DNA of 41,922 nt from Parvibaculum sp. GTDB lineage: Bacteria; Pseudomonadota; Alphaproteobacteria; Parvibaculales; Parvibaculaceae. Shown here one piece after another: positions 1,451 through 40,983 of this stretch (its first letter is position 1; each line of letters starts with the position of its first letter). The notes under the pieces are model-generated. The model was given only the letters and a program-made list of their open reading frames with translations. It did not search any database and had not been told where the DNA came from. Position numbers and translations under genes: made by a program. Where the stretch lies: assembly GCF_002684405.1 (NCBI RefSeq), contig NZ_NYVD01000088.1, forward strand, positions 1-41,922. Direction: 5' to 3'.

Positions 1451-2722
1451 ATGAGCGACCAGGCTTTCAACACGCTTGCCATTCACGCCGGAGCGCAGCC
1501 GGACCCGACCACGGGCGCGCGCGCGACGCCGATCTACCAGACGACTTCCTTCGCTTTCGACGATGCGGACCACGCCTCGCAGCTCTTCGGCCTGCAGGCC
1601 TTCGGCAACATCTATACGCGCATCACCAACCCGACGACGGCGGTGCTGGAAGAACGCGTCGCGGCGCTGGAAGGCGGCACGGCGGCGCTCGGCGTCTCAT
1701 CCGGCCACGCAGCGCAGCTTCTCGTCTTCCACACCATGCTGGAACCGGGCGATCATTTCGTGGCGGCCAAGCAGCTCTACGGCGGCTCCATCAACCAGTT
1801 CGGCCATGCCTTCAAGAAGTTCGGCTGGGAAGTCGATTGGGTGGACGTGTCCGACCCGGCGAATGTGAAGGCCGCCATCGGCAAGAAGACCAAGGCCGTC
1901 TTCATCGAAAGCCTGGCCAATCCCGGCGGCGTGGTGACGGACATCAAGGCGATTGCCGATATCGCGCATGAGGCGGGTATTCCGCTCGTCGTCGACAACA
2001 CGCTGGCCTCGCCCTATCTGTGCAACCCGCTGGCGCATGGCGCGGACATCGTCGTCCATTCCATGACGAAGTTCCTGGGCGGTCACGGCAATTCCATGGG
2101 CGGCGTCATCGTCGATGGCGGCGGCTTCGACTGGTCGAAGGACGGCAAGTACCCGACGCTCAGCGAGCCGTGCGAGAGCTATCACGGCATGAAGCTGCAT
2201 GAGACCTTCGGCAATATCGCCTTCGCCATCGCCTGCCGCGTGCTGGGCCTGCGCGACCTCGGCCCGGCCATCTCGCCCTTCAATTCCTTCATGATCCTGA
2301 CGGGCATCGAAACGCTGCCGCTGCGCATGCAGCGCCATTGCGACAATGCGCTGGAAGTGGCGACCTTCCTGAAAGACCATCCCAAGGTGAGCTGGGTGTC
2401 CTATGCGGGCCTGCCCGGCGACCCGCATCACGAGCTGATGAAGAAATACTCGCCCAAAGGCGCGGGCGCGGTCTTCACCTTCGGCGTAGAAGGCGGATAT
2501 GACGCGGGCGTGAAGCTGGTGAATTCGGTGAAGCTGCTGAGCCATCTCGCCAATGTGGGCGATACACGCAGCCTCATCATCCACCCGGCCTCCACGACGC
2601 ATCGTCAGCTCTCGGAAGAACAGCAAACCGCGGCGGGCGCAGGCCCCGACGTGGTGCGCCTCTCCGTCGGCATCGAGGATGCGAAAGACATCATCGCCGA
2701 TCTGGAACAGGCGCTGGCCTGA
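1451..2722 (+). CDS. metY: O-acetylhomoserine sulfhydrylase (aminocarboxypropyltransferase)
   Basis: A 423-residue PLP enzyme of the Cys/Met-metabolism family, and the length fits MetY. It makes homocysteine from O-acetylhomoserine and sulfide, or methanethiol to methionine, in the cytoplasm. The PLP lysine is K207 in VVHSMTKFLGGHGNSMGG. TPIYQTTSFAF and YTRITNPTT near the N-terminus and SVGIEDAKDIIADLEQAL at the end are typical. ATG 1451 has AGGA seven bases upstream and starts with the family-typical MSDQAFNTLAIHAG. The frame stays open upstream to 1376, but that stretch is repeat DNA. A strong terminator follows directly. O-succinylhomoserine as substrate cannot be excluded. Confidence 0.93.
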   Translation: MSDQAFNTLAIHAGAQPDPTTGARATPIYQTTSFAFDDADHASQLFGLQAFGNIYTRITNPTTAVLEERVAALEGGTAALGVSSGHAAQLLVFHTMLEPGDHFVAAKQLYGGSINQFGHAFKKFGWEVDWVDVSDPANVKAAIGKKTKAVFIESLANPGGVVTDIKAIADIAHEAGIPLVVDNTLASPYLCNPLAHGADIVVHSMTKFLGGHGNSMGGVIVDGGGFDWSKDGKYPTLSEPCESYHGMKLHETFGNIAFAIACRVLGLRDLGPAISPFNSFMILTGIETLPLRMQRHCDNALEVATFLKDHPKVSWVSYAGLPGDPHHELMKKYSPKGAGAVFTFGVEGGYDAGVKLVNSVKLLSHLANVGDTRSLIIHPASTTHRQLSEEQQTAAGAGPDVVRLSVGIEDAKDIIADLEQALA

Positions 2723-2746
2723 TCCAACGGGATCGAAGAACTAGAG

Positions 2747-2781
2747 AAGCCACCCCGGCAAAACCGGGGTGGCTTTTTTTT
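2747..2781 (+). terminator. Rho-independent terminator of metY
   Basis: AAGCCACCCCGG (2747-2758) and CCGGGGTGGCTT (2764-2775) form a perfect 12-bp stem around the loop CAAAA. The 3' arm runs into an eight-T tract (2774-2781). It sits 24 bp after the metY stop and ends 3 bp before the clpP stop on the other strand. On the minus strand the tail is only TTCTCTAG, so any effect there should be weaker. Confidence 0.93.
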
Positions 2782-2783
2782 AT

Positions 2784-3404
2784 TCAGTTCGCCTCAGGCG
2801 CCGCGCCCATCCCGCGCTCGGTAAGGATGCGGTCGATGAGCCCCCATTCGAGCGCCTGCTCCGCCGTCATGAAGCGGTCCCGGTCCATCGCCTGTTCGAA
2901 CTCCTCGTAAGAGCGTCCGCAATGCTCGGCGTAAGCCTTTGTGATGCGCTTCTTGGTGCGCAGAGTTTCTTCAGCATGAATGAGAATGTCGGACGCCTGC
3001 CCCTGAAAGCCGCCCGAAGGCTGATGGATCAGGATGCTGACATTGGGGAGCGCCGCGCGCTGGCCGGGTTCGCCCGCCATCAGCAGAAACGACCCCATCG
3101 AGCAGGCCGTCCCCATGCAGAGCGTATGCACGGGCGCCTTGATGTAGCGCATCGTGTCGTACATGGCGAAACCGCTGGTCACGACGCCACCGGGCGAATT
3201 GATATAGAGCTGGATCGGCTTCTTGGGATTTTCCGCTTCCAGAAACAACAGCTGCGCACAGACCAGAGCGGAGACGGTGTCGTTCACCTCGCCATTCAGG
3301 AAGATGATCCTCTCGCGCAGCAGGCGGGAATAAATGTCGAAAGAGCGTTCGCCGCGGCTCGACTGTTCGACGACCATAGGGACGAGTTGCATCGCTTCGC
3401 GCAT
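2784..3404 (-). CDS. clpP: ATP-dependent Clp protease proteolytic subunit
   Basis: A 206-residue serine peptidase of family S14. The catalytic triad is visible as Ser102 (GTACSMGSF), His127 (ILIHQPSGG) and Asp176 (DRDRFM). It forms the barrel chamber that works with ClpA/ClpX unfoldases in cytoplasmic protein turnover. The active-site context reads TACSM rather than the common QAASM. No clpX, lon or tig gene lies next to it here, unlike the usual tig-clpP-clpX order, so this may be a second, stand-alone ClpP paralog. The gene follows the SRPBCC gene by 45 bp on the same strand. A second in-frame ATG lies four codons in. Confidence 0.93.
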
Positions 3405-34789: not shown

Positions 34790-35650
34790 TCAGCGGGACG
34801 TCATGATGATGCGGCCCTGGCCGGCGAGATCGCCGCTGCGGCAGATGAGCGAGGAGCGTGCCGAACAGGGCGCGTAATAGAGGCGCAGAAGGTCGCCATC
34901 CAGCGTCATGTCGAAGCAGTCCTCGGCGCCGTACTGGATCTCCGACGAGCTGAAGCAGAAGCGGTTATCCTCGATCCACCATTTGCCCGACCCTGATTTG
35001 TGCTTCTCGCTGGAATATTCCTTCAGATAATTCGTGGCGAGATACTGGGTCAGATCCACTTCCATGCTGCCGTCGGCATCGAGCTCCAGCGTCATGTTGA
35101 TGAGCTTGTTGGAGCCCTGCCGCTCGATACGGCCCATTTCGAGCTTCAGCGTCTTGCCCATCATCTGCGAGCGAATCTGACCGCCGGTCAGCGCATTGCC
35201 CTTGCGGTTGAGGATGGTCTTCTTTGCATCGCCCCCGGCACCGCCGCCTTTGCCGCCCTCGACGCCATTGCCCGCGGAGGCCTGCGGCTCTTCCTGCGGT
35301 TGAGGCACGGGTTCGGGTTTCCGCTCCGGCTTGGGCAAGGGTTTGTCCGCCTTGCGCACCGCCTGTTCCGGCTTCGGCTTGGGCGGTTCCGGTTTCTTCA
35401 CTTCCGGTTTCGGCTGCGGCTTCGCCGCCGCCTTGCGCGGACGCGGCGCGGCATAGCGGTCGTTCATCGAGCCCGCGGCAAGCTGGAAGGTCACGGAATC
35501 GCCGCCGCCCGGACCGGGCCCGCCGAAAATGCCGCCCGCCATGGTCAGCCAGAAGAAGAGCGCCAGATGCAGCAGCACCGCCGCGACCAGAAATCCGCGC
35601 AGGCGCGGCTGCGGCACGGCGGTCGCATTTTCGTCCCACGCCACGCTCAT
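34790..35650 (-). CDS. TonB-like envelope protein with a non-TonB C-terminal domain
   Basis: A 286-residue protein. A single N-terminal helix (about 19-40, FLVAAVLLHLALFFWLTMAG) is followed by a long proline/lysine linker (about 70-120, PKPEVKKPEPPKPKPEQ and similar), the hallmark of TonB/TolA-type energy transducers. The C-terminus (about 165-286) is not a TonB domain: it has LDADGSMEVDLTQ, GKWWIEDNRFCF and DCFDMTLDGDLLRLYYAP with four cysteines, a pattern reminiscent of small extracytoplasmic lipocalin-like domains. It overlaps the upstream exbD by 4 bp, so it belongs to the Ton-like operon. The partner in the envelope is unknown. Confidence 0.8.
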   Translation of the reverse strand: MSVAWDENATAVPQPRLRGFLVAAVLLHLALFFWLTMAGGIFGGPGPGGGDSVTFQLAAGSMNDRYAAPRPRKAAAKPQPKPEVKKPEPPKPKPEQAVRKADKPLPKPERKPEPVPQPQEEPQASAGNGVEGGKGGGAGGDAKKTILNRKGNALTGGQIRSQMMGKTLKLEMGRIERQGSNKLINMTLELDADGSMEVDLTQYLATNYLKEYSSEKHKSGSGKWWIEDNRFCFSSSEIQYGAEDCFDMTLDGDLLRLYYAPCSARSSLICRSGDLAGQGRIIMTSR

Positions 35651-36063
35651 GAGCCGCGCTCCGTCAGCAACGTCACCTGCTGCACGCCGGCGCCGCGCAA
35701 TCCTTCCATCAGCGTCAGCACGCTTTCAGCGGGCGCGGCCTGGTCGGCCTTGATGGACACGCGCGACTTGTCCTTGTCCTTCATGAAGTCCTTCAGCATG
35801 AAGCCCGCGAGCGACGGCTCCATCACCTGCTCGCCGACCCAGACGAAACCGTCCGCCTCCACGTATAGCGTGACCTTCTGCGGCGGGGCCGGATCGTCAA
35901 TCGTCCCGCTCGGCAGGTTCACGCCCACTTCGCTGGTCTCGCCCAGCGTGCCCGCCAGCAGAAAGAAGATCAGCAGCAGGAACACGACATTGATGAGCGG
36001 GATCGTCGTCTCGAACTCCCGCCGCGGCGCGGGCGCGCCATCCTGTTCGTCGAATTCGATCAT
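35647..36063 (-). CDS. ExbD/TolR-family protein with Asn in place of the proton-channel Asp
   Basis: A 138-residue ExbD/TolR protein with one transmembrane helix (TIPLINVVFLLLIFFLLAGT, about 20-39) and a periplasmic domain. Active ExbD and TolR carry an essential Asp in this helix (PLIDVVF). Here it is Asn25, and the codon is AAT on the coding strand. Everything else in the helix is conserved. It probably pairs with the downstream-coupled partner rather than acting alone. It overlaps exbD2 upstream (ATGA) and the TonB-like gene downstream (ATGA). Confidence 0.9.
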   Translation of the reverse strand: MIEFDEQDGAPAPRREFETTIPLINVVFLLLIFFLLAGTLGETSEVGVNLPSGTIDDPAPPQKVTLYVEADGFVWVGEQVMEPSLAGFMLKDFMKDKDKSRVSIKADQAAPAESVLTLMEGLRGAGVQQVTLLTERGS

Positions 36064-36476
36064 TTGCCCAGACGCTCCACCCTTGCCGTACCGACATTCG
36101 TCGCGCCCGCCTCACGCGCCGCTTCCACCGCGCGGACCAGTTGCTGCGTGCGCGAATCCCTTTCCGCCAGAATGGTCACCGTCATGTCGGTCCTCTCGCC
36201 GATCCTGGCGCGGACCGCGTCTGCCAGCCCAGCCGACGAAACCGGATCGCCGTCCACGCGCAGCGACCCGTCCCCCATCAGCCAGATCTCGACCACACGC
36301 GCATCCTCCGGCAGCTCCTTCTGGTCCGCCGCCGGGGTCACCACGGACAGCGCCTGCGTCTGCAGGAAGCTCGTGGTGAGCATGAAGAAGATCAGCAACT
36401 GAAAGACGACGTCGATCAGCGGCGTGAGGCTCATCATCCGCCGCCGCTTGACCGGTACGTCGAAGGCATCTGCCAT
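36060..36476 (-). CDS. ExbD/TolR-family proton-channel protein (canonical Asp)
   Basis: A 138-residue ExbD/TolR protein. The transmembrane helix SLTPLIDVVFQLLIFFMLTT (16-35) carries the proton-binding Asp22. The periplasmic part ends VGTARVERLGK. It is preceded by exbB (25-bp gap) and overlaps the second exbD by 4 bp. With ExbB it would form the proton-driven motor of the Ton-like complex. Confidence 0.92.
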   Translation of the reverse strand: MADAFDVPVKRRRMMSLTPLIDVVFQLLIFFMLTTSFLQTQALSVVTPAADQKELPEDARVVEIWLMGDGSLRVDGDPVSSAGLADAVRARIGERTDMTVTILAERDSRTQQLVRAVEAAREAGATNVGTARVERLGK

Positions 36477-36501
36477 GGCGCTTGCTCCGGCTATGTCCCG
36501 C

Positions 36502-37296
36502 TCAGTCCGCCGCCTTGGCGGGCCGGCTCATGGGACGGGCATGAAGCGCGGCGAGAATCCGGGCCGACGCATCGCGCATCGAAAGCCGGACCTGATCCAC
36601 ACGGCCCTCGAAGAGGTTGAGCGCCGTGATCGCCGGAAGCGCCACGATGAGGCCGACAGCGGTGGTCAGAAGCGCCTGCCAGATGCCGCCCGACAGCAAT
36701 GCCGGATCGACCTTGGAGCCGGATTCCTCAAGCTGCTGGAACGCCTCGATCATGCCGATCACCGTGCCCAGCAGGCCGAGCAAGGGCGAGATATTGCCGA
36801 TCACTTCAAGCCAGCGGAAATGACGCTGCAAGGCGCCCAGTTCGACGGCCCCGACACGGGAAACCTCCGCCGCGACATCCTCGTCGCGCAGGTCGCCACG
36901 CGCCTTGGCGCGAACGCCGGCCGCCATGGCCCGCGACAGCGGGGTCTTGTATTTGGAGAGGATCGCGAGAGCCCCTTCCGGGTCGCCCGCCTCGACCTTG
37001 TCCACGGCCGGATCGACGAAATTGCGCCGCTTCAGATCCGAGCGCCAGAACTGCCAGAGCTTCAGCAGAATGACCGCGGCTGAAATAACCGACAGCACGA
37101 TAAGGATGACGACGATGACGCCGCCCTTGTCCACCAGAGACGACAGGCTGTACCAGGGATCTGCGCCCCCTGCGGCAAGCGCATTGGCCGCACCGTGAAT
37201 GGTCCCCGCCGCCTGATCGGCCCCCGTGGCCGCAGCATCCGCACCACTATTGGCAGCCACCGTCGCGTCGGCAGCCGTCTGAGCAGCATCCGGCAT
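36502..37296 (-). CDS. ExbB/TolQ/MotA-family proton channel protein
   Basis: A 264-residue inner-membrane protein. The N-terminus (1-48) is an Ala/Gly-rich extension (AAQTAADATVAANSGADAAA) of unclear role. The first helix is VIVVILIVLSVISAAVILLK, and the conserved pair of C-terminal helices begins WLEVIGNISPLLGLLGTVIG (about 162) and ALLTTAVGLIVALPAITALN (about 211). It forms the pentameric core around ExbD dimers. It is the first gene of the operon exbB-exbD-exbD-TonB-like, divergent from marR. Confidence 0.92.
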   Translation of the reverse strand: MPDAAQTAADATVAANSGADAAATGADQAAGTIHGAANALAAGGADPWYSLSSLVDKGGVIVVILIVLSVISAAVILLKLWQFWRSDLKRRNFVDPAVDKVEAGDPEGALAILSKYKTPLSRAMAAGVRAKARGDLRDEDVAAEVSRVGAVELGALQRHFRWLEVIGNISPLLGLLGTVIGMIEAFQQLEESGSKVDPALLSGGIWQALLTTAVGLIVALPAITALNLFEGRVDQVRLSMRDASARILAALHARPMSRPAKAAD

Positions 37297-38912: not shown

Positions 38913-39051
38913 CTCCGATATACTCCAGTCGCGGCCAGCTTGCGCACAAGGCGGCAGAAAACTGCCGGATATTCGGTTGTAGAAATGCCCTGAGAGGGGC
39001 GCAACCAACCATCGGCGCAAATCACCAATGCGTCGATGCAAAGCATTTTGG

Positions 39052-39072
39052 TTAAACCGCCTGTTAACAGGC
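39052..39072. promoter_or_regulatory. Palindrome and CtrA-like element upstream of motA
   Basis: GCCTGTTAACAGGC (39059-39072) is a perfect 14-bp palindrome. Together with the preceding TTAA (39052-39055) it gives TTAA, 8 bp, TTAAC, one base longer than the CtrA consensus TTAA-N7-TTAAC. It lies 79 bp before the motA start. Regulation by CtrA would fit motility genes in this group, but the spacing is off by one. Confidence 0.35.
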
Positions 39073-39150
39073 CCTCCCCCAATATGTGGACGTGTGGCGC
39101 CGGATCGCAGAAAGCGACCGGGGGAAAAATATCAAGGAAGCATTTGGGCA

Positions 39151-40011
39151 ATGCGACTGATAGTCGGGCTTTTGGTAGTTATTGTTAGCGTCTTTGGCGG
39201 TTATGCCGCGATGGGCGCCCACCTCGAAGTGCTGTTTCAGCCCTTCGAATTCGTCATCATTCTGGGTGCCGCGATCGGCGCTTTCGTGATTGGCAATCCG
39301 GGATCCGTGCTGAAATCCATGGGCTCGACCTTTGCCACGCTCGGACGCGGCTCGCGCTACACCAAGGACGCCTATCTGGAGCTCCTCGGTCTTCAGTACA
39401 CGCTCTTCAAGCTCGCCAAGAGCAAGGGCAATCTGGCGCTGGAAGCCCATGTGGAAAACCCCGGCGACTCCTCGATTTTCGCTCAGTTTCCCGGTTTCGC
39501 AAACGACCATCACGCCGTCGAGTTCATGTGCGACTACCTGCGCATGATTACGCTGGGCACGGAAAATGCCTACGAACTCGAAGCGCTGATGGACGAGGAA
39601 CTGGAAACCCACCATCAGGAACAGGAACGCATGGTCAATGCGCTCCAGGCGCTCGCCGACGGCACGCCCGCGCTGGGCATCGTCGCCGCGGTGCTGGGCG
39701 TCATCAAGACCATGGGCTCCATCGACCAGCCGCCGGAAGTGCTGGGCCACCTGATCGGCGGCGCGCTTGTCGGCACCTTCTTCGGCGTGTTCTGCGCCTA
39801 TGGCTTCTTCGCCCCGATGGCGCAGTCCTTGCGCAACATCTACGAGGCGGAGGGCAAATATTATCTCTCCATGAAGGCGGGCCTTCTGGCGCATATGGCC
39901 GGCTACGCCCCCGCCGTCTCGATCGAATTCGCGCGCAAGGCGCTGATGTCCGATGTCCGTCCGACCTTTGCCGAGGTGGAAGCCTCCACCGCCACCCTTC
40001 AGGCAGCGTAA
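39151..40011 (+). CDS. motA: Flagellar motor stator protein MotA
   Basis: A 286-residue stator subunit with four helices: LIVGLLVVIVSVFGGYAAMG (3-22), a second helix from about 33, and a C-terminal pair including GTPALGIVAAVLGVIKTMGS and LGHLIGGALVGTFFGVFCAY. The cytoplasmic loop (about 60-165) contains acidic and basic residues that contact the rotor. With MotB it forms the H+ channel that turns the flagellum. The start ATG 39151 gives the family-typical MRLIVGLLVV; the open frame extends to 39028 without homology. motB follows after 21 bp. Confidence 0.96.
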   Translation: MRLIVGLLVVIVSVFGGYAAMGAHLEVLFQPFEFVIILGAAIGAFVIGNPGSVLKSMGSTFATLGRGSRYTKDAYLELLGLQYTLFKLAKSKGNLALEAHVENPGDSSIFAQFPGFANDHHAVEFMCDYLRMITLGTENAYELEALMDEELETHHQEQERMVNALQALADGTPALGIVAAVLGVIKTMGSIDQPPEVLGHLIGGALVGTFFGVFCAYGFFAPMAQSLRNIYEAEGKYYLSMKAGLLAHMAGYAPAVSIEFARKALMSDVRPTFAEVEASTATLQAA

Positions 40012-40032
40012 AACCCGAAAGGCGGACCCGAC

Positions 40033-40983
40033 ATGGCCGGCAACGAACAATCCATCATCATCAAGAAGGTCAAGAAGCAGGCGCATGCCCATCATGGCGG
40101 CGCCTGGAAGATCGCTTATGCCGACTTCGTGACCGCGATGATGGCCTTCTTCCTGCTGATGTGGCTGATCTCCATGACCACACCGGAGCAGAAGCAGGGT
40201 CTTGCCGACTATTTCGCCCCGCCCAATGTCAGCCGGTCCACCTCCGGGTCCGGCGGTGTGATGGGCGGCACCGCCTTCGATTCGAACGGCGCCCGCATGC
40301 CCGGCTCCAAGCCGCAGGTCATGATGACCAAATCGACGCCGGCCGCGCCCAAAAGTCCCGACACGGACGATTTGCGCGCCGCCTCCGCCGGTCAGGGCAC
40401 GAAGAACGGCGAAGAGAGCGCCCATTCCAGCGCGCAGGCCCAGCAGGCCAGTCTGAACCAGCAGAAGGTGCTGAACGCGCGTGAGGAACGCAGTTTCCAG
40501 AGCGCCGCCGAAAGCATCCGGCAGGCCATGCGCGAAAACCCCGACCTCGCCGAACTGTCGCGCAACGTCATCATCGACGAGACGCCGGAAGGCCTGCGCA
40601 TCCAGATCGTCGATCAGGACGGGCGCTCCATGTTCCCGCCTGGCTATGCCGAACCCTATGAGCGCACGCGCATGCTGCTAAAGACCGTCGCCAAGACGCT
40701 TCTGCGCCTGCCCAACCGGATCAGCATTTCCGGCCACACCGACGCGACGCCCTATCCCGGCAACAAGGGCTATTCGAACTGGGAGCTGACCGCCGACCGG
40801 GCCAACGCGGCGCGCCGCATTCTCGCCGCGGCGGGTGTCCCGCAGGACCGCATCTATCAGGTCGTCGGCAAGGCCGATTCCGAGCCGCTTTTCCCGGAAG
40901 ATCCCTATCTGCCCGGCAATCGCCGCCTGTCGCTCGTGCTGCTGCGCGAGGCGCCCGTCGCCCCGCCCGGCTTCAGGCCGTAG
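40033..40983 (+). CDS. motB: Flagellar motor stator protein MotB
   Basis: A 316-residue stator subunit. The transmembrane helix WKIAYADFVTAMMAFFLLMW (25-44) carries the proton-conducting Asp31, and the KKVKK stretch before it is typical. A Ser/Gln-rich linker (about 65-150) leads to an OmpA-like peptidoglycan-binding domain (about 175-305) with ISISGHTDATPYPGNKGYSN and NWELTADRANAARRIL. It anchors the motor to the cell wall. It is co-transcribed with motA. No other flagellar genes are in the window. Confidence 0.96.
   Translation: MAGNEQSIIIKKVKKQAHAHHGGAWKIAYADFVTAMMAFFLLMWLISMTTPEQKQGLADYFAPPNVSRSTSGSGGVMGGTAFDSNGARMPGSKPQVMMTKSTPAAPKSPDTDDLRAASAGQGTKNGEESAHSSAQAQQASLNQQKVLNAREERSFQSAAESIRQAMRENPDLAELSRNVIIDETPEGLRIQIVDQDGRSMFPPGYAEPYERTRMLLKTVAKTLLRLPNRISISGHTDATPYPGNKGYSNWELTADRANAARRILAAAGVPQDRIYQVVGKADSEPLFPEDPYLPGNRRLSLVLLREAPVAPPGFRP

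Follow-up and report, generated by a model that had tools for sequence, protein, structure and literature searches.

We analyzed a 41,922-nucleotide stretch of a Parvibaculum sp. genome (contig NZ_NYVD01000088.1, hereafter the window) and found a Ton-like operon on its minus strand (34790..37296), in which an exbB-like gene is followed by two different exbD-like genes and a gene for a TonB-like transducer. One ExbD carries the proton-binding Asp in its transmembrane helix, and the other carries Asn at this site. We propose, with a probability of roughly 0.6, that the operon specifies a 5:2 proton motor of the Ton type whose central ExbD dimer combines one Asp form with one Asn form, and that this heterodimeric motor drives a transducer with a barrel-shaped tip.

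The exbB-like gene (36502..37296, minus strand) encoded a motor pentamer subunit of 264 residues, which matched the Pfam family MotA_ExbB (PF01618) at E 2e-29 and conserved the E. coli pore residues Thr148 and Thr181, with Gln in place of Glu176. The two exbD-like genes, also on the minus strand, each encoded 138 residues and matched PF02472; the first (36060..36476, E 1.6e-22) had Asp22 in the transmembrane helix (PLIDVVF), and the second (35647..36063, E 8.7e-20) had Asn25 replacing Asp (PLINVVF). The fourth gene (34790..35650, minus strand) encoded a TonB-like transducer of 286 residues with an anchor, a Pro/Lys-rich linker and a divergent C-terminal domain. The numbering of Asp22 and Asn25 in the original prediction was correct, and both residues aligned with Asp25 of E. 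coli ExbD. The tight linkage of the four genes that it had described, a gap of 25 bp between exbB and the Asp-ExbD gene and then two 4-bp overlaps, was exact. The ratio of nonsynonymous to synonymous substitution rates (dN/dS) against the nearest relative (G012; G, C and L denote genomes, contigs and loci) was approximately 0.08 for exbB, 0.17 for Asp-ExbD, 0.07 for Asn-ExbD and 0.10 for the last domain of the transducer, and because of these low values no gene of the operon looked decayed. The objection that orthologues of the Asn form might be pseudogenes was not borne out, since the Asn relatives that were read had open ExbD frames and the window Asn-ExbD was under purifying selection.

The Asn form was widespread and closely paired. 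In the class sample (385 genomes; Alphaproteobacteria, as judged from the named relatives), matches to the Asn-ExbD profile at E <= 1e-12 occurred in 100 genomes, and a selection of the hits was read, comprising 30 loci of this search and 40 further regions. The Asn or Ser form was found in at least 50 of the 385 genomes, the window's own order included, and 19 of the 40 further regions contained Asp forms only. In the phylum sample (398 genomes), the best 30 loci comprised 17 with the pair, three of which lay outside the class (G674, G555 and G540), and 13 with Asp forms only. These loci were chosen by likeness to the Asn form and hence show its company, not its frequency. After removal of duplicates, 87 distinct non-Asp ExbDs were obtained, 86 with Asn and one with Ser (G350), which indicated that Asn25 was not unique to the window. 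An Asp-ExbD was located directly upstream on the same strand in 86 of these 87 (window included); the sole unpaired one (L157) started at a contig end, with an ExbD piece before it. Over 257 profile matches, duplicates included, the proton site was Asp in 153, Asn in 101 and Ser in two, and one fragment stopped short of the site. Furthermore, Asn25 was conserved together with its neighbors, a check proposed with the original prediction: 43 of the 44 rows of alignment A4 had Asn beside invariant Pro, Leu and Phe, at identities to the window's sequence down to 18%, which argued against neutral drift.

The ancestry of the two forms was examined in a tree of 222 rows, a quick tree on 130 columns with many open forks and flagged long branches. 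The Asn/Ser rows required two label changes, compared with a shuffled mean of 68.9, and the paired Asp rows required four, compared with 68.3. All 87 Asn/Ser rows, together with one Asp row (G148), were placed behind a branch with a support of 87, which is under the 95 mark. As judged from this comparison of sequences, the Asp and Asn forms make up an old, tightly paired module with a fixed order. In G350 (L118/L135), the second ExbD had Ser (PLISVVF) at the Asn position, and what matters may thus be the presence of a neutral polar residue and not specifically Asn. At another locus (L143, G162:C202), Asp-ExbD and Asn-ExbD were read in one open frame; this was rejected as a real fusion and is probably a frameshift in one draft genome. 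Further ExbD matches in the window's own genome (G000) were partial (L006 and L007, G000:C67) or below the family cut-off (L008, G000:C8).

The proteins driven by the mixed pair were mostly ordinary. A TonB_C match was found in 19 of the 21 genes picked downstream of Asn-ExbD (loci L137-L157), and the two misses (L155 and L157) may reflect the choice of open reading frame. The window's own genome also contained such an operon on contig C42 (G000:C42), where Asp-ExbD, Asn-ExbD and a TonB_C protein stood together with an ExbB-like open reading frame recognized by eye. The original prediction had joined a mixed ExbD pair to an odd effector. The reading of a mixed pair was strengthened by the comparison, but its tie to the odd effector was not, because in other families the pair mostly precedes a normal TonB; the mixed pair is general, wider in scope than first claimed, but not bound to the odd tip. 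The mixed pair thus belongs to an ordinary-looking Ton module, and the window operon is a relative of that module with another tip.

The real oddity of the window operon lies in its transducer tip, where a domain predicted as a lipocalin/ToxS-like barrel replaces TonB_C. The C-terminal domain (residues 150-286; 34793..35203, minus strand), with Cys at 232, 245, 262 and 270, was modeled as an eight-stranded lipocalin/ToxS-like barrel with a high structural score, and a fold match was found. The structural alignment of the tip yielded 13% identity to ToxS and 6% to VtrC, and the structural scores of other natural barrels fell between those of ToxS and VtrC (8.8 for TP0435 and 7.2-7.8 for several lipocalin-like proteins). 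In agreement with the earlier view that this end differs from TonB_C, the window protein gave no PF03544 match in Pfam up to E 10, and 37 homologous last domains gave none up to E 1. The tip profile A1 had no match among PDB sequences up to E 10; calmodulins appeared from E 0.12 when the single domain was searched against PDB sequences, were absent with the profile and were rejected as relatives. The Pfam strays in the 37 tips (DUF3116 at 0.0018 in three, nos_propeller at 0.0066 in two and another at 0.1) were not credible, the NCBIfam matches of the tip were strays from 0.023 upward, and nine more distant tip proteins had no named domain below E 0.33.

The remainder of the transducer resembled TonB and TolA. 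The anchor and linker that had been described as TonB/TolA-like were matched in NCBIfam below the cut-off and in those parts only (TolA, 2.8e-05 at residues 20-122; TonB, 0.00046 at residues 45-124), and a PARP match of the full transducer (0.00082) was discarded as a low-complexity stray on the linker. The membrane anchor (about residues 20-38, extent by eye; 35537..35593, minus strand) contained His28, and an anchor His was present in 44 of 45 relatives; these proteins were picked by script from 46 loci, with the miss (L091) due to a wrong open reading frame and L113 giving none. A D-box-like strand, SVTFQLAA, was recognized by eye at residues 52-59 (35474..35497, minus strand). By eye, the first six of the seven positions of VTFQLAA fit the D-box pattern and the last departs from it (PMC10907165).

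The last domain was present in 39 of the 40 genomes of the order sample, and the locus was read in 38 of the 39, leaving out G020 (a partial match). Its named relatives were Parvibaculum, Rhodobiaceae, Tepidicaulis and similar. Asp-ExbD followed by Asn-ExbD stood beside the barrel gene in 32 of these 38 loci (window included). Wherever motor genes adjoined the barrel gene, the order was Asp then Asn (32/32), and so this order is more than chance. In one genome (L049, G030:C36), the barrel domain occurred once more right after the operon (2572-3258, minus strand); this additional copy had an N-terminal hydrophobic segment and no Pro-rich linker, and is possibly a free periplasmic version. In the class sample, related tips were detected in 19 of the 385 genomes at E <= 0.001, five of them in the window's own family. 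The paired motor adjoined the four strong matches outside that family (G164, G267, G350 and G384); three further genomes (G054, G109 and G221) were outside the locus reading. Related tips rich in Cys were also observed on more distant TonB-like proteins (L106-L111 and L113).

The periplasmic residues of the two ExbD forms were compared at two E. coli positions. At Asp107, for which we know of no assigned role, Asp was retained in 84 of the 87 Asn/Ser forms and in 38 of the 49 Asp forms that had no non-Asp partner (27 single and 22 in Asp-Asp pairs), compared with 5 of 86 paired Asp forms. At Leu132, all 85 Asn/Ser forms having a residue there carried Leu, Ile or Val; in the window's type, the residue of the paired Asp form was Thr in 30 and Met in 4 of 34 sequences. 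It has been reported that the change of ExbD Leu132 to Gln abolishes D-box binding, and that the two ExbD chains differ in how they hold a single D-box strand (PMC10907165), which makes two specialized chains plausible. These patterns are suggestive of a division of labor, above all in the window's type, with the usual periplasmic residues preserved in the Asn form and the proton site preserved in the Asp form. In the pentamer subunit, Thr148 and Thr181 were kept in 63 of the 63 distinct ExbBs upstream of the Asp-Asn pair. Glu176 was variable in every group, with Glu present in 29 of these 63 ExbBs, and was rejected as a feature that marks the mixed motor.

In the proposed mechanism, each ExbB pentamer would hold one Asp-ExbD and one Asn-ExbD, as the sequence pattern suggests. 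The Asp site would take up and release a proton, and the Asn site would stay neutral and mimic protonated Asp; in MotB, the exchange of Asp for Asn mimics the protonated state (PMC9389320). According to published models, the dimer turns 36 degrees per proton (PMC12215075), and the two Asp residues swap protons in some models (PMC12905483, PMC9389320); in a review, the two TolR Asp residues are described as exchanging protonation during 36-degree steps (PMC12905483). If Asp-ExbD and Asn-ExbD share one pentamer, such an exchange would be impossible, and we infer that only one Asp may work inside one motor. Proton use would then be about one per 72 degrees instead of one per 36 degrees; alternatively, the stroke could be a rocking instead of a full rotation. 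Proton handling would fall to the Asp form, and gripping of the transducer to the Asn form, in which more of the usual periplasmic residues are preserved. The transducer may carry the barrel across the periplasm and pull on, or load and unload, a putative partner or hydrophobic ligand.

Several observations weigh against this mechanism. Asp-Asp ExbD tandems were also found, and the second member of one of them (L175, G148) clustered with the Asn forms in the tree, perhaps as a reversal. The pore Thr residues were kept in every ExbB group, so they are no marker of a mixed motor. Glu took the place of Asp107 in every paired Asp form of the window's type (34/34), which is a mild change, and at Leu132 the paired Asp forms elsewhere carried Leu in 36 of 52 and Thr in none; for these two reasons the division of labor is only suggestive. 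The anchor departs from the SHLS motif at its Ser: the window protein and its counterpart in the nearest relative have Ala-x3-His, and many others have Ser-x3-His. In six of the 38 genomes of the order sample (G001, G002, G014, G029, G035 and G036), exbB and exbD were not found beside the barrel gene within the 7.3-7.4 kb fetched, and the barrel protein thus does not always depend on the Asp/Asn motor. Searches with the Asn-ExbD profile gave no match in G014, G035 and G029, and they detected Asp forms only in G001, G002 and G036; G001 and G029 are incomplete genomes. In G035 (L044) and G036 (L041), the neighbors were window-like and only exbB and both exbD genes were gone, with the barrel gene left alone. 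The barrel protein may outlive the Asp/Asn motor, perhaps using TolQR instead. Likewise, none of the seven weaker tip loci of the class sample (L119-L125) had exbB or exbD in the stretch fetched.

The two ExbDs could also form separate homodimers, and because E. coli ExbD D25N is inactive (PMC11658791), the Asn protomer could act as a brake. The same mutant favors an explanation in which Asn-ExbD is a proton-dead homodimer, or has a regulatory role in tuning or blocking the Asp motor, and is not half of each rotor; the full ExbD domain in both proteins is also consistent with it. However, an obligate partner, though not proven, agrees better than an optional brake with the fixed-order pairing (86/87) and with the residue losses in opposite directions, and we consider this explanation unlikely. 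To a similar degree, we doubt that the system is a ligand sensor, in which the barrel would bind a hydrophobic molecule and gate the motor or report the state of the envelope: the four-gene operon has no transcription factor or signaling domain, and, with other natural barrels scoring between ToxS and VtrC, the common barrel fold shows no function. An ordinary Ton paralogue with an E. coli-like motor, a tip that grips a specific outer-membrane protein and an Asn that is a tolerated neutral change would account for the TonB-like anchor, linker and motor genes, and force transducers whose tip has been exchanged for a vWA domain have already been described (PMC12204202), but it is the least probable of the three, given the conservation of Asn in alignment A4 and the absence of a receptor match from the window contig.

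The genes adjoining the operon were MarR-, flavin reductase-, HIBADH- and pyridoxal phosphate (PLP) decarboxylase-like. TolB and Pal, which would mark a Tol-Pal system, were not among them, and the tolQRA-like genes of the same genome were recognized by eye on contig C145. The earlier statement that no TonB-dependent receptor lies nearby agreed with our results, as all eight receptor matches of the genome were on other contigs. The genes motA and motB, which encode another 5:2 motor, were located near the operon at 39028-40983, an arrangement that recurs in many relatives. The neighbors (MotAB, flavin reductase, MarR, HIBADH-like and decarboxylase) were rejected as a hint to function; they recur around the locus and were read as plain synteny, because they are present also where the motor genes are missing.

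Extending the heterodimeric motor beyond the window, we tentatively suggest, at somewhat less than even odds, that a large group of alphaproteobacteria possesses an obligate Asp/Asn 5:2 motor that is half-charged, uses half the protons per turn or rocks, and has a proton-binding and a transducer-holding protomer. In Parvibaculum and its relatives, this motor would also drive a new class of barrel-tipped transducers, perhaps as tethered carriers of hydrophobic molecules. If the heterodimer is real, a natural motor with one acid would help to explain how proton flow is converted into motion in MotAB, ExbBD and TolQR, by separating the models that need Asp alternation from those that do not, and its two different protomers would label the halves of the rotor, which is impossible in a homodimeric motor. 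The barrel-tipped transducer, as modeled, would represent a further class of motor-linked envelope protein. Among the literature matches listed, no description of an Asp/Asn ExbD pair was found in titles or abstract openings, a scope that mostly excludes subscription literature. The passages considered of PMC8599685, PMC10907165, PMC12204202, PMC9389320, PMC3169522, PMC12215075, PMC12905483 and PMC11658791 did not mention the pair, and a term search of PMC10771500 found nothing on an ExbD heterodimer or asymmetry, or on D107, R105, K108 or L132.

Compared with known systems, the window operon resembles ExbB-ExbD-TonB, with which it shares the motor subunits, pore threonines, anchor His, D-box-like strand and linker; the TonB_C operon of its own genome (G000:C42) has the same gene order. 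It differs from ExbB-ExbD-TonB in that its two ExbDs are not alike, the proton-binding Asp being absent from one of them, and in that a four-Cys domain stands in place of TonB_C. The tip resembles the periplasmic domains of ToxS and VtrC in fold only, with no family membership claimed; to our knowledge, neither protein is part of a proton motor. The Ton operon of Sphingobium SYK-6 similarly has exbB followed by tandem exbD1-exbD2, whereas tonB comes first and both ExbDs retain Asp25 (PMC8599685), an Asp-Asp tandem that joins the points raised above against the heterodimer. The AglRQS gliding motor of Myxococcus likewise combines one MotA/TolQ-like protein with two ExbD/TolR-like proteins (PMC3169522), but AglQ and AglS are both described with a conserved Asp (PMC9389320). 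The vWA force transducers are motor-linked, anchored in the inner membrane and tipped with neither TonB nor TolA; they differ in that their tip is a vWA domain, and an Asp/Asn pair is not mentioned in the passages considered (PMC12204202). Collectively, the type of machine is already known, and the half-charged rotor and the barrel tip that we propose are variants of it.
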